Assembly (NCBI GenBank): GCA_022360075.1
Contig: JAKSDN010001198.1
Span: forward strand, 1-7,324
Source: Kiloniellales bacterium
Lineage (GTDB): Bacteria > Pseudomonadota > Alphaproteobacteria > Kiloniellales > JAKSDN01
Direction: 5' to 3'
DNA length: 7,324 nucleotides
A program made the translations under genes and the position numbers. The first letter of the stretch is position 1, and each line of letters opens with the position of its first letter. Under the pieces are notes generated by a model. The model worked only from the letters and a program-made list of their open reading frames with translations. It made no database searches and was not told the DNA's origin. This document shows, one piece after another, positions 1,195-5,928 of the stretch.

Positions 1195-1641
1195 CTAGTA
1201 ACGCAGGCCGATGGTCGTGTTGGTCGGGCCTTTCACCTCGATCGCCGCTTCCTCGAAGGAAGGCGGCCCGAAGGCTCTGATCCAGGCGCCGTTGCTGAAG
1301 CCCAGGCCCTCGGCCGGGAGTCCGATGAAGGTCTTGTCGAACTCGCCGTTGCCGTTCTCGTCGTGGTAGGCGATCAAGGCATAGAGTCCGGGCTCGATGT
1401 CCTTGAATAAGATCGCCTTCTCGCCGCTGCTGGCCGGCGCGCTGCTTTCCAGCAGGATCGCGTCGGTCTCCGTGAAGCCCTTGGGGTCCGACCAGAGCGC
1501 GATGCGCAGGCTGCCCTGGTCGCTGCGCACGTCCTTGATCACGACCTCGAGCGAGGACTCCTCGGCCGGCGCGGCGATCGCCGATCCGGCAACGACTGCG
1601 AGGGCGACGAGGCCGCCCAGGACCTTTGACTTCCCCAACAT
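1195..1641 (-). CDS. Secreted DUF2141 family protein
   Basis: A 148-residue protein. The start is taken at ATG 1641, because GGAG lies eight bases upstream and a signal peptide begins directly there: basic MLGKSK, a hydrophobic core (LGGLVALAVVAGSAIA, residues 8-23) and an Ala-X-Ala-type cleavage site near residue 23. An upstream in-frame start at 1710 would place the signal peptide internally and overlaps the likely -10 box. The mature domain of about 125 residues follows the DUF2141 pattern: a beta-rich start (LEVVIKDVRSDQGSLRIALW, 31-50), GLYALIAYHDENGNGEFD (85-102), then GLPAEGLGFSNGA (107-119), FGPPSFEEAAIEV (124-136) and a terminal beta strand ending LRY. The motif D94-x-N96-x-N98-G-x-x-D102 resembles a calcium-binding loop. 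No function is established for the family; a periplasmic or surface beta-sandwich is the likely form. It sits 136 bases after pspC on the same strand but appears to have its own promoter. Confidence 0.88.
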   Translation of the reverse strand: MLGKSKVLGGLVALAVVAGSAIAAPAEESSLEVVIKDVRSDQGSLRIALWSDPKGFTETDAILLESSAPASSGEKAILFKDIEPGLYALIAYHDENGNGEFDKTFIGLPAEGLGFSNGAWIRAFGPPSFEEAAIEVKGPTNTTIGLRY

Positions 1642-1707
1642 CTCCGCCGCTCCAGCAAACCAAGCCCGATGCAAACAATCGGATTCGGCCCCCATCTGTC
1701 CCGGAGG

Positions 1708-1736
1708 CATATAGTCCAGCGCTGCGCAAATGAAAA
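1708..1736 (-). promoter_or_regulatory. Sigma70-like promoter for the DUF2141 gene
   Basis: On the minus strand, TTTTCA (1736-1731, 4 of 6 to TTGACA) is followed after exactly 17 bases by TATATG (1713-1708, 4 of 6 to TATAAT). Transcription would start near 1701, giving a leader of about 60 bases before the ATG at 1641. Predicted by inspection only. Confidence 0.4.
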
Positions 1737-1777: not shown

Positions 1778-2269
1778 TCAAGCTCGGCCCGAGCCCCTGC
1801 CGCCGTTCAGCTCCTGGTCCATCTTGAAGGCCGGCGAGGTGACATGGGCCTCGAGGCCGCGCAGGCGCAGCTCGAGCGTTCGGAACTTGTGCTTGAGGCC
1901 GGCGAAGGTCTTGCTGGGGTCGGTGCGGACCGAGCGCCAGAAGGCCTCCTCCTCCTTGGTCTCGAACAGGTCTTCGGGCTGCACGTCGAGGAGCCAGGCC
2001 AGGAAGAGATAGGTGACCAGCGTCGGCGGCGGGAACATCAAGAGAAAGACCAACCAGACCAGGCGCACCAGGCCGGCATTGATCCCGGCGTAGTCGGCGA
2101 TGCCGCCGCAGACGCCGAGGATCTTGGCGCCGGCGCGCGGGCGGCGGTAGAGCCGGCTGCGGCTCGGCGACTGGCCAGACTGCGCGTGGTGGCGCCAGGT
2201 GCCCGGCCCGCTCCAGCTCCACCGGCTGCGACGGGGACCGCAGCGGGAATGACGCTGGCGCCAGGTCAC
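1778..2269 (-). CDS. pspC: Phage shock protein C (inner-membrane stress sensor/effector)
   Basis: A 163-residue protein beginning with GTG at 2269. That codon overlaps the pspB stop (shared GTGA), and GGAG lies nine bases upstream, so translation is probably coupled to pspB. No other ATG, GTG or TTG lies in frame before the domain. The PspC domain spans about residues 39-103: RLYRRPRAGAKILGVCGGIADY (39-60), then a hydrophobic stretch (69-94) with a PPP turn, and DVQPEDLF at its end. The tail (104-163) is charged and probably helical (FWRSVRTDP, then a region rich in Leu and Arg), as is usual in alphaproteobacterial PspC. In known systems PspB and PspC sit together in the inner membrane and draw PspA off PspF under stress. 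The first 38 residues are unusual: very basic and Trp-rich, with six Trp and about ten Arg, and longer than the short N-terminus of the E. coli protein. Confidence 0.92.
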   Translation of the reverse strand: MTWRQRHSRCGPRRSRWSWSGPGTWRHHAQSGQSPSRSRLYRRPRAGAKILGVCGGIADYAGINAGLVRLVWLVFLLMFPPPTLVTYLFLAWLLDVQPEDLFETKEEEAFWRSVRTDPSKTFAGLKHKFRTLELRLRGLEAHVTSPAFKMDQELNGGRGSGRA

Positions 2270-2499
2270 GGCTTGTTTCTCCAGCCGGGCGCCTCGGCGT
2301 CGAGGATCTGTTCCAGAGTCGCGATCCGCGTCTCCATCTTCGCCGCGCTCTCCCAAAGGTCCGAGAGGACCTGCTCGTCGTCGGCGGAGATCGACTTCGC
2401 CAGACGCCAGCGGGTGACGTAGTGGGCGATGATCCACAGCGGTGCGACCACCGCCAGGAAGATGATCAGCGGTACTTCGATAAACGAGAGGATGCTCAT
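2266..2499 (-). CDS. pspB: Phage shock protein B (small membrane partner of PspC)
   Basis: A 77-residue protein, close to the 74 residues of E. coli PspB. Residues 4-27 form one membrane helix (LSFIEVPLIIFLAVVAPLWI and the residues after it). This is followed by the family's basic patch (RWRLAK) and a charged helix (DDEQVLSDLWESAAKMETRIATLE) likely to form a coiled coil in the cytoplasm. ATG at 2499 is preceded by GGA-rich sequence (GGACGGAACGCC). It begins 38 bases after the pspA stop and overlaps pspC by four bases, the standard psp order. PspB acts with PspC to pass the membrane-stress signal to PspA. Confidence 0.95.
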   Translation of the reverse strand: MSILSFIEVPLIIFLAVVAPLWIIAHYVTRWRLAKSISADDEQVLSDLWESAAKMETRIATLEQILDAEAPGWRNKP

Positions 2500-2537: not shown

Positions 2538-3209
2538 TCACCGCTTGTCGCGCGCCGCGATCCGGTCCTTCAGGCTTTCGAGCTCCGCCTCGATCGCGCT
2601 TTCGGCCTCCAGCGCCGCGATCTCCTCGGCCAGGGTCTTGCGCTGACCGAGATCGAAGGCTTCGACCCGGCCCTCGGCCTCGTCGAGCTTGCGCTCGACC
2701 TGCTCGAAGCGGGCCAGCGCGTCGTCGACCCGGCCATCCTGCAGCGTCGTGCGCACCTTCAGGCGCGAGCCGGCGGCCTCCTGCCGGGTGACGATCGCCT
2801 TCTGCTTGGCCTTGGCTTCCGCGAGCTTGGCCTGAAGCTTGGCGATGTCGGCATCGCCCTGGACGATCGCCTCTTCGACCTGGACCAGCTCCTGCTCCAA
2901 TATGCCGGCCGTGTCGGCGAGCTTGGCCTTTTCCAGGAGCGCGGCCTTGGCCAGGTCCTCGCGGCCCTTCTCCAGCGCCAGCTCGGCGCGCCGCGCCCAC
3001 TCCTCCTGGGCCTCCTTGACCTGGTCGAGCTTGCGGGCGATCGCTTTCTTGTCGGCGATCGAGCGCGCCGCGTTGGTGCGCACCTCGACCAGGGTGTCCT
3101 CCATCTCCTGGATGATCAGGCGGATGATCTTCTCCGGCTCCTCCGCCCGGTCGAGGATCGCGTTGATGTTCGAATTGATGATGTCGGCAAGTCGGGAAAA
3201 GATGCTCAT
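2538..3209 (-). CDS. pspA: Phage shock protein A (membrane-stabilising ESCRT-III-like protein and PspF inhibitor)
   Basis: A 223-residue protein, against 222 in E. coli. It starts with the amphipathic membrane-binding helix MSIFSRLADIINSNINAILD (residues 1-20), then EEPEKIIRLIIQEME (23-37) and the signature RTNAARSIADKKAI (44-57). The rest, up to about residue 215, is almost continuous charged helix rich in Ala, Glu, Lys and Leu, as expected of a coiled-coil PspA/IM30 protein. ATG at 3209 has AGGAAG about six bases upstream. In known systems PspA binds PspF and blocks its ATPase in unstressed cells; on stress it moves to the inner membrane and assembles into scaffolds that limit proton leak. 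It lies 32 bases after the small gene at 3242-3412 and is followed by pspB. VIPP1-type paralogues are excluded by the psp context and the lack of a long C-terminal extension. Confidence 0.97.
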   Translation of the reverse strand: MSIFSRLADIINSNINAILDRAEEPEKIIRLIIQEMEDTLVEVRTNAARSIADKKAIARKLDQVKEAQEEWARRAELALEKGREDLAKAALLEKAKLADTAGILEQELVQVEEAIVQGDADIAKLQAKLAEAKAKQKAIVTRQEAAGSRLKVRTTLQDGRVDDALARFEQVERKLDEAEGRVEAFDLGQRKTLAEEIAALEAESAIEAELESLKDRIAARDKR

Positions 3210-3241: not shown

Positions 3242-3412
3242 TCAGCCGAGGATGAGGCCGATCACCAGGCCGGCGAAAAACAGCAGCCAGTGCTCGGCGG
3301 TCAGGCTGCGCAGATAGGTCCGGAGGCGTTCCGCCAGCTCGGGGCCGCGATGATGCGCCCGCGTATGGCGCCAGTCGGACTGCCGGAAATCCGTGAAGTC
3401 GTCGTTCCTCAT
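3242..3412 (-). CDS. Small predicted tail-anchored membrane protein, first gene of the psp operon (unrecognised)
   Basis: A 56-residue reading frame from ATG 3412 to TGA 3244-3242. It lies between the sigma54 promoter and pspA, so it should be the first gene translated from the psp message. The first 30 residues are hydrophilic and rich in His, Arg and Asp (MRNDDFTDFRQSDWRH at the start), followed by an amphipathic stretch (PELAERLRTYLRSLTAEHW, 24-42). The last 14 residues are hydrophobic (LLFFAGLVIGLILG), with glycines at 48, 52 and 56, the spacing of helix-packing glycine zippers. A single C-terminal membrane helix and a cytoplasmic N-terminus are inferred. The likely ribosome site is AGAGGA at 3430-3425, with a rather long 12-base spacer. 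The stop is 32 bases before pspA. It does not resemble PspD, PspE or PspG as I know them. Supporting points are the intact frame, position and clear membrane segment; short length leaves some doubt. Confidence 0.68.
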   Translation of the reverse strand: MRNDDFTDFRQSDWRHTRAHHRGPELAERLRTYLRSLTAEHWLLFFAGLVIGLILG

Positions 3413-3441
3413 GGTTATCGAATGTCCTCTCGCTTTCTTCC

Positions 3442-3475: not shown

Positions 3476-3491
3476 TGCAGAGATCGTGCCA
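3476..3491 (-). promoter_or_regulatory. Sigma54 promoter of the psp operon
   Basis: On the minus strand, TGGCACG-ATCT-CTGCA matches the sigma54 consensus (TGGCACG, four bases, TTGCA) at all but one base. The invariant GG (3490-3489) and GC (3478-3477) are separated by exactly ten bases. Transcription would start near 3465 and run through the small gene, pspA, pspB and pspC. Its place between those genes and a divergent PspF activator is the classic psp arrangement, so this is the best-supported regulatory site in the window. Confidence 0.9.
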
Positions 3492-3624: not shown

Positions 3625-4662
<1,038 letters not shown>

Positions 4663-4684: not shown

Positions 4685-5755
4685 TCAAGCCTCGCCCTGA
4701 AGGTCCGCGAGCTGGGTCATCAGGCCCGTGCCCGGAAGCTGTCCGACCTTGGCATCCTTCATGTCGGCGTCGCGCAGGTTGGCGTTCAGCAGGTCGGCGC
4801 CTCTCAGATCGGCGCCGACGAGCTTGGCCCGCAGCAGATTGGCGCCGCGAAGCCGCGCCGCCGCCAGGAGGGCGCCGTTGAGATTGGCGCCGACCAGGTT
4901 CGTCATCTCGAGATTGGCCAGCGCCAGGTTGGCGCCGGCGAGATCGAAGTCGCTGAGGTCGCTGCCCGAGAAGTCCGCCTGGCGACCCGCCTTGCCGCCG
5001 TGGTGGAACCACTCCTCGTGTTCTTGAAGCACGCGCGCGATCGTCTCCGGGTCCCTCTGCGCGCGCGTCGCGACCAGGGCCAGACCCAGATTCAGGCTCT
5101 CCGCCCCGGCGCCCGAGATCGCCGCGCTGCGCAGATCGGCTTCGTCCAGGCGCGCACCCTCGAGGTTGGCGTCGATCAGCTCCGCGCCGTGGAACAGCGC
5201 GCAACGCACGTCAGCGTCCTTGAGATTCGCGTGGTCCAGGATCGCGCCGCTGAAATCCACGCTCTTCAGCTTCGAGCTGGCCAGGTTCGTGCCGCGCAGG
5301 GTCGCGCAGCGGAAAGTGCTGCCCGTGTCGACCGTGACCTCTCGCCGGGCGACGTCCATGATCGCGCCTTCGCGCAGGTCGGCGCCCTCCAGATCGGTCG
5401 AAGTCAGATTGGCGCCCTCGAAGGTGGTGGCGCGCAGATCGGCCTTGAAGAAGTCGGCGTGGGAGAGGTCGGCCTCGTCGAAACAGGCGCCGAACAGCTG
5501 GGCGAAGCGGAAGCTGGCGCGTTTCAGCTTGGCGGCCTTGAAGTCGCAGGCGAAGAACTCCGACTCCGCGAAATCCATCCCATCGAAGCGCAGGCCTTCG
5601 AGCGTGCAGTGCCGGAGGACCGCCTTTCGTCCGCCGGGTTTGCCCTCGACGAAGCGCCGATGCTGGTCGTGCAGCTTGTCCAGCAGGTCCTGGGACAGCC
5701 GCATGTTCTTCAGCGCCTTGGCTCCCGTATAGGTGGGACTGGCATGGCTCAGCAT
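4685..5755 (-). CDS. Pentapeptide-repeat protein
   Basis: A 356-residue protein if started at ATG 5755. A TTG at 5761 or the ATG at 5704 (MRLSQDLLDKL) are alternatives; none has a strong ribosome site, and recognisable sequence begins only at the 5704 methionine. Most of the chain is A(D/N)LXX-type repeats, in blocks at about 45-128 (ADLSHADFFKADLRATTFEG), 147-224 and 259-336 (LVGADLRGADLLNANLRDAD). Such repeats fold as a right-handed square beta-helix. Two short non-repeat segments, before the first and third blocks, share the pattern of a helix, His, an aromatic residue, then G-K-x-G-R-x-A (HRRFVEGKPGGRKA and HEEWFHHGGKAGRQA). No signal peptide or membrane segment is visible, so it is probably cytoplasmic. 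There is no sign that it is a Qnr/MfpA-type gyrase protector; function unknown. It converges on pspF, with 22 bases between stops. Confidence 0.9.
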   Translation of the reverse strand: MLSHASPTYTGAKALKNMRLSQDLLDKLHDQHRRFVEGKPGGRKAVLRHCTLEGLRFDGMDFAESEFFACDFKAAKLKRASFRFAQLFGACFDEADLSHADFFKADLRATTFEGANLTSTDLEGADLREGAIMDVARREVTVDTGSTFRCATLRGTNLASSKLKSVDFSGAILDHANLKDADVRCALFHGAELIDANLEGARLDEADLRSAAISGAGAESLNLGLALVATRAQRDPETIARVLQEHEEWFHHGGKAGRQADFSGSDLSDFDLAGANLALANLEMTNLVGANLNGALLAAARLRGANLLRAKLVGADLRGADLLNANLRDADMKDAKVGQLPGTGLMTQLADLQGEA

Positions 5756-5928
5756 GGACAAAGGGCGGCCGTTTCCGGTTGCGGTGGCGTGTCGAATGCG
5801 AGGGGCTTGGCCCCGGCGTGAATGCCGCGCGTGGTGAAGCGGCGTTGCGCCTTGATCTCTAGGCTCGCAAGTGTAGCCCTAAGTGCCTAAATGCGGGGTA
5901 AAGTATTGCCGGCATTTGATATATTCCC

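Follow-up and report, generated by a model that had tools for sequence, protein, structure and literature searches.

Textbook accounts of Psp, a response to membrane stress, start from E. coli, in which pspA comes first. PspA is a membrane-repair protein related to ESCRT-III, and the same regulon includes the small membrane proteins PspD and PspG. In the sections of a comparative study covered here, PspD is reported only from Proteobacteria and PspG almost only from there, and the full set of components is found in Enterobacterales alone (PMC9239133). LiaI is described as the membrane anchor of LiaH, encoded with it in the LiaRS-controlled liaIH operon of Bacillus subtilis (PMC9239133, sections covered), and is placed in the four-helix LiaI-LiaF-TM family (PMC11237479, sections covered). 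Likewise, YdjG and YdjH are stated to be required for the membrane recruitment of PspA and its assembly into foci in B. subtilis (PMC8581546, sections covered), YdjG being listed with a zinc-ribbon domain (PMC9239133). A more distant point of comparison is TatA, in which a helix of 12 hydrophobic residues combined with an amphipathic helix gives rise to hydrophobic mismatch (PMC9527704), and PspA is reported to interact with TatA and to co-purify with the Tat system (PMC11178869), both according to the portions of these reports considered here. Among the variations of the operon, the section on pspFABC diversity in PMC11237479 names PspB duplicates, PspC-PspB fusions, PspD and Toastrack proteins. 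No description of a microprotein of the kind reported below was found in the literature searched, and the covered parts of the two comparative Psp studies (PMC9239133 and PMC11237479, including the diversity section) make no mention of one.

The window, that is the whole stretch of 7,324 nucleotides analysed here, contains a complete psp locus of an alphaproteobacterium, in which a small gene precedes pspA:

3242..3412, minus strand: microprotein gene, 56 amino acids, product predicted to be tail-anchored, first gene of the psp operon (intact frame and conservation)
3412 and 3242-3244, minus strand: ATG start and stop codon of the microprotein gene, respectively (sequence)
3425..3431, minus strand: Shine-Dalgarno-like GAGAGGA, 12 nt 5' of the microprotein ATG (sequence)
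3477..3491, minus strand: sigma54 (-24/-12) type site, TGGCACGATCTCTGC, sole match to the strict pattern in the window
2538..3209, minus strand: pspA (TIGR02977, 283.9 bits against a cut-off of 242.95)
2266..2499, minus strand: pspB (TIGR02976, 90.2 bits against 51.7)
1778..2269, minus strand: pspC, probable start GTG at 2269 (Pfam, NCBIfam)
3625..4662, plus strand: pspF, divergent sigma54 activator gene (TIGR02974, 487.4 bits against 443.55)

The identities of pspA, pspB, pspC and pspF are upheld by Pfam and NCBIfam, the score of PspC lying slightly below the cut-off of the TIGR model (98.6 against 104 bits) and above that of Pfam. PspA of the window is 72% identical to the PspA proteins of Denitrobaculum, one Pelagibius sp. 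and two uncultured Kiloniellaceae. The initial annotation had described an intact reading frame between a near-consensus sigma54 site (3477-3491) and pspA, and this was confirmed in the sequence; the gene lies directly before pspA and behind the sigma54-type site, as a component of the psp operon, and its stop codon is separated from pspA by 32 nt that include the motif CAGGAAG.

The microprotein shares some features with each of the described systems and differs from each in others. Like LiaI, it is a predicted membrane protein of small size whose gene accompanies that of a PspA-family protein and is probably co-induced with it; LiaI, however, is described in the sections covered as having four helices and as responding to LiaRS, whereas the microprotein has one hydrophobic tail and a sigma54-type site. 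YdjG and YdjH are also membrane proteins of a pspA operon (pspA-ydjGHI), but by the descriptions covered they are encoded after pspA, and the zinc ribbon of YdjG sets that protein further apart. With PspB, PspC, PspD and PspG the microprotein has in common that these are small membrane proteins of the Psp regulon; PspB and PspC, on the other hand, are separately encoded in every examined locus. TatA and the short-helix holins similarly place an unusually short hydrophobic helix beside a second helix, but the order of the elements is reversed and no family match was obtained, and the likeness is one of principle only. Pfam contains models for PspD, PspG and LiaI-type proteins. Among 27 members of the microprotein family, no Pfam match to PspB, PspC, PspD or PspG was observed at E ≤ 1, and none of the 27 matched the LiaI-type or TatA families; by these profile tests the resemblance to LiaI is one of role and not of homology. 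The window protein itself gave nothing convincing against Pfam or NCBIfam (in the latter only YtrI, E = 0.23), and eight weak Pfam matches of the 27 members (SNARE, DUF3185 and others; best E 0.011-0.19) were dismissed as chance.

A single hydrophobic segment is located at the extreme C-terminus, as in tail-anchored proteins, and membrane insertion of the predicted anchor is thereby suggested. This tail extends over 15 residues, W42-G56, with the pattern W-x2-F-x2-G-x3-G-x4. W42, F45, G48 and G52 are invariant in all 27 members of alignment A2, and in a set of 64 members W42, F45 and G52 remain invariant with G48 retained in at least 90%. Of the G48-xxx-G52-xxx-G56 series singled out in the initial annotation, the first two glycines are accordingly conserved, but the third is replaced in some members by S, A, T, M or F. 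The tail, counted from its Trp, is 15 residues long in 26 of the 27 A2 members (14 in the remaining one), in 84 of 87 database proteins (14 in one, two lacking the motif) and in 33 of 33 family and phylum loci, these sets overlapping, with two of the 33 already included in A2. The Arg/His-rich N-terminus noted for the window protein is no family trait: the head varies widely in length, and net charge ranges from -2 to +5. The amphipathic stretch, 14 residues that end four before the Trp, is evident in the window, at z 2.6, and only modest among the 27 members, with a mean z of 1.1 and values above zero in 26 and below it in one. AlphaFold placed helices at residues 22-38 and 41-55, with confidence in the tail only (a mean pLDDT of 79 over residues 41-50 and of 91 over residues 51-56), the model as a whole being weak (mean pLDDT 65.1, pTM 0.29). 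The protein would have its N-terminus inside: a cytosolic head with little conservation, then a short helix with Arg that may run on the membrane surface, and lastly a hydrophobic C-terminal helix whose length is fixed and which carries a G-x3-G motif.

The distribution of the gene was followed through several genome sets. A scan of 84,980 species, each represented by one genome, with the window PspA as single-protein query returned 40 loci, which represent close relatives only. At 14 of these (L001-L008, L012, L013, L015, L016, L020 and L021) a related frame is present between a sigma54-type site and pspA, and at three (the Nitrospirillum loci L017 and L018, and L019) another small hydrophobic frame is found in the slot. 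Seven loci (L009, L010, L011, L014 and the gammaproteobacterial L022, L023 and L025) have a sigma54-type site 56-87 nt before pspA without a related frame; at the other 16 (L024, L026-L040) the pattern recognized no site in the vicinity of pspA, apart from a loose match in L035 at -344, and no related frame was seen. The gap between the microprotein gene and pspA ranges from 17 nt (L049) to 180 nt (L056). Among 289 genomes drawn evenly from the class, profile A1 matched 14 at E ≤ 0.01; the match lies directly before pspA in nine genomes with E ≤ 2.1e-6 and in G250 (E = 0.001), and weak matches in G029, G030, G129 and G142 (E 0.001-0.003) were rejected, there being no PspA at the locus or in the genome. 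A larger profile, A3, which used 49 of the 87 database proteins, gave 11 of the same 289 genomes at E ≤ 0.001, namely the same ten and G129 (E = 7e-4, with two internal stops). With that stop-containing match left out, the microprotein is encoded in 10 of 31 class genomes with PspA and in 0 of 258 without (Fisher p = 4.6e-11, kinship ignored); 22-23 first-look candidates were scored per genome, and the absences may include misses.

The 30 class PspA loci over the cut-off, a count that leaves out four places below it (second copies in G274, G178 and G247, and the sole copy of G049), comprise ten with the gene, one with a probable divergent member (L082), two with an Azospirillaceae-type frame (L084, L085), 11 in which the sigma54-type site is 48-78 nt before pspA and thus leaves no space for the gene, and six that were unclassified (L086, L089, L099, L100, L103 and L104). 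The divergent member at L082 was recognized by eye from its 15-residue tail, was not detected by profile, and counts as a carrier in the tree below only. The Azospirillaceae-type frames of L017, L018, L084 and L085 (Nitrospirillum and similar) are small membrane ORFs of 56-66 aa before pspA, distinct from the microprotein; an uncontrolled profile comparison of the two gave a weak result, with a probability of 20%, P = 0.0011 and the same Trp register. At L019 the slot, about 160 nt before pspA, is taken by a hydrophobic ORF of 39 aa that has no Trp motif.

For the order to which the window belongs, assumed to be that of Pelagibius litoralis, PspA was found (E ≤ 1e-20) in 19 of 61 genomes, and the microprotein gene is present, in frame and next to pspA, in 13 of the 19 and absent from six, which show no match elsewhere in the genome either (loci L075-L078 are the same contigs as L001-L004). 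A search for relocated copies in 25 genomes without the gene in the pspA slot, scoring up to 150 first-look candidates per genome, gave three weak matches (E 0.0018, 0.058 and 0.09), none of which was accepted. From the family of G186, called Hyphomonas-like from named relatives, 101 genomes were drawn. The gene was detected in 96 of them and PspA in 94, and judging from coordinates all 94 with PspA have the gene immediately ahead of pspA and in the same orientation; of the seven genomes without PspA, five lack the gene and two (G764, G799) carry it at a contig end with less than 200 nt left for pspA. The same draw contained a weak stray match (G759, contig C19, E = 5e-4) and a second copy at a contig end (G745, contig C123), neither of which adjoins pspA. 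Given its place before pspA in 94 of 94 PspA genomes sampled from one family, the microprotein is probably an overlooked component of the alphaproteobacterial Psp system. In the phylum draw of 398 genomes, with 17 candidates scored per genome and absences that may include misses, six matches were obtained at E ≤ 0.001, all with the gene before pspA; all six are genomes from the class and family searches, and nothing was thus found outside the class. At the protein level, a single-sequence search returned one near-identical relative and an alignment search 87 proteins.

In combination, these searches reveal that the microprotein gene opens the psp operon in many alphaproteobacteria and that many other alphaproteobacterial psp operons are without it, which makes it accessory. 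Since pspF, pspA, pspB and pspC are present in all 56 distinct loci examined (61 less five duplicates) and in the window, with or without the microprotein, it is an addition and no substitute. On a tree of PspA and PspF from 63 loci (PspF for 57), in which the genome of L082 was entered as a carrier by hand and the Azospirillaceae-type and L019 frames were treated as absent, presence and absence change eight times, compared with an average of 20.2 changes and a minimum of 14 over 1000 shuffles. The small number of changes indicates mostly vertical inheritance with some losses or gains.

Selection was studied in 14 codon comparisons, eight of which are non-overlapping and were pooled, with six left out. 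The pooled pairs gave a pN/pS of 0.27 (pS 0.39, pN 0.10; 321.5 synonymous and 1013.5 non-synonymous sites), with 0.17 for the last 24 codons and 0.31 for the remainder, and 57, 42 and 133 changes at codon positions 1, 2 and 3, respectively. A shifted-frame control on four of the eight pairs yielded 0.19 in the true frame versus 1.77 and 1.60 in the shifted frames. These pairs thus show purifying selection at the protein level, strongest in the C-terminal tail. Comparisons outside the pool gave 0.32 (L001/L002) and, as weaker signals, 0.57 (L013/L063), 0.54 (L005/L012) and 0.60 for the Nitrospirillum ORF (L017/L018, nine changes). Those that include the window are weak too (0.70 with L005 over 38 codons, 0.78 with L007 over 47 codons), so that the case for selection rests on the relatives and not on the window's own lineage.

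The length of the frame is by itself no evidence of a gene: when the bases of the pspA-pspF interval were shuffled 2000 times, an ATG frame of at least 56 codons arose in 427 cases, so that the length is not significant. These shuffles would agree with a spurious open frame in a GC-rich interval; conservation, selection and pspA linkage all oppose that explanation, the adjacency in every PspA genome of the family draw contradicts it, and practically no weight can be given to it. Stops or frameshifts in the homologous intervals, with no conservation at the protein level, would have spoken against a gene; instead, the relatives keep the frame, the tail is under purifying selection and the slot before pspA is retained. 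The frame is a gene because it is conserved, and not because of its length: it is a real protein-coding gene, conserved, under selection and tied to pspA. The initial annotation had considered it short enough to be missed by routine gene calling, which is possible but does not always happen, some relatives being annotated as 'hypothetical protein'.

Its place in the operon and its tie to pspA suggest that the microprotein is a partner protein for PspA, and from these we infer that it may bind PspA. The reading of the initial annotation is supported, and its functional proposal, that the microprotein anchors or tunes PspA or PspBC or oligomerises, is plausible. Our favoured reading, held tentatively, is that of a predicted membrane docking or positioning factor for PspA, an accessory part of the alphaproteobacterial Psp system. 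Judging from the promoter-like site and the gene order, PspF and sigma54 would induce the microprotein jointly with PspA, PspB and PspC; assembly could then proceed via the G-x3-G motif, contact with PspA, or both, and PspA polymers would be docked or positioned at the membrane, much as LiaI serves LiaH and YdjG/YdjH serve PspA. Because the tail is short, the protein may possibly mark thinned or packing-defective membrane. PspA binds lipid by itself, however, so that an anchor need not exist.

Second in order of preference, though unlikely, is a signalling regulator that sets the threshold or the shut-off of the response, either through binding to PspB or PspC or as a competitor of PspF for PspA. 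Small membrane proteins often regulate larger partners, and a first gene with a sigma54-type site and a divergent pspF, in examined loci that all include pspB and pspC, would suit such a role; the missing Pfam resemblance to PspB and PspC in the 27 members, and conservation almost wholly in the tail, argue against it. Direct action on the bilayer ranks third and is distinctly improbable: the short G-x3-G helix and the surface helix would cluster, thin or seal damaged membrane, TatA-like in principle, with PspA as co-effector. The fixed 15-residue hydrophobic tail beside a predicted second helix (of low confidence in that region) is consistent with this, as are the mismatch caused by the short TatA helix and the interaction of PspA with TatA (PMC9527704 and PMC11178869, portions covered), yet the helix order is opposite to that of TatA, no family match was obtained and the amphipathicity is modest. 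A regulatory leader peptide, whose translation rather than product controls pspA, would agree with a short first gene directly upstream of pspA, but protein-level selection that is strongest in the C-terminal tail, a gap to pspA that varies from 17 to 180 nt, and the lack of any Rfam family in the window at gathering scores render it very improbable. Marginally less credible still is a membrane-depolarising toxin-like peptide, which the small hydrophobic helix might suggest, since the gene is retained in the psp operon across many genomes, its presence follows the PspA/PspF tree, and no toxin family is among the Pfam matches.

Returning to the docking factor, a bolder version would make the microprotein a new Psp protein family that belongs to the Alphaproteobacteria and is core-like in one or more of their families. 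Its 15-residue tail of fixed length would dock PspA on thinned or damaged inner membrane through hydrophobic mismatch, as a dedicated damage marker or receptor for PspA polymers, with the Azospirillaceae-type and other slot ORFs as fast-diverging versions in the same role; taken as a whole, this version is rather doubtful. A small, apparently co-induced membrane protein with a near-invariant 15-residue tail offers a simple genetic handle on the way in which PspA finds damaged membrane.

Further variation was observed around the gene. The strict sigma54 pattern matches nothing in the Hyphomonas-like loci; all 14 that were inspected among L151-L181, out of 33 loci retrieved, have a variant site, TGGCACG-GTCC-TTGAAA or near, with TTGA at -12, where sigma54 sites normally have TTGC. 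At L098 the microprotein gene is itself preceded by another small hydrophobic ORF (48 aa), placed after the sigma54-like site, and at L017, L018, L116 and L118 a further PspB-like and PspC-like match is found downstream of pspC. In the window (2255-2275), the probable GTG start of pspC at 2269 overlaps the pspB stop (GTGA) and adds an Arg/Trp-rich N-terminal extension. The locus is flanked by genes for a DUF2141 protein downstream of pspC (1195-1710, minus strand) and for a pentapeptide-repeat protein convergent with pspF (4685-5761, minus strand).
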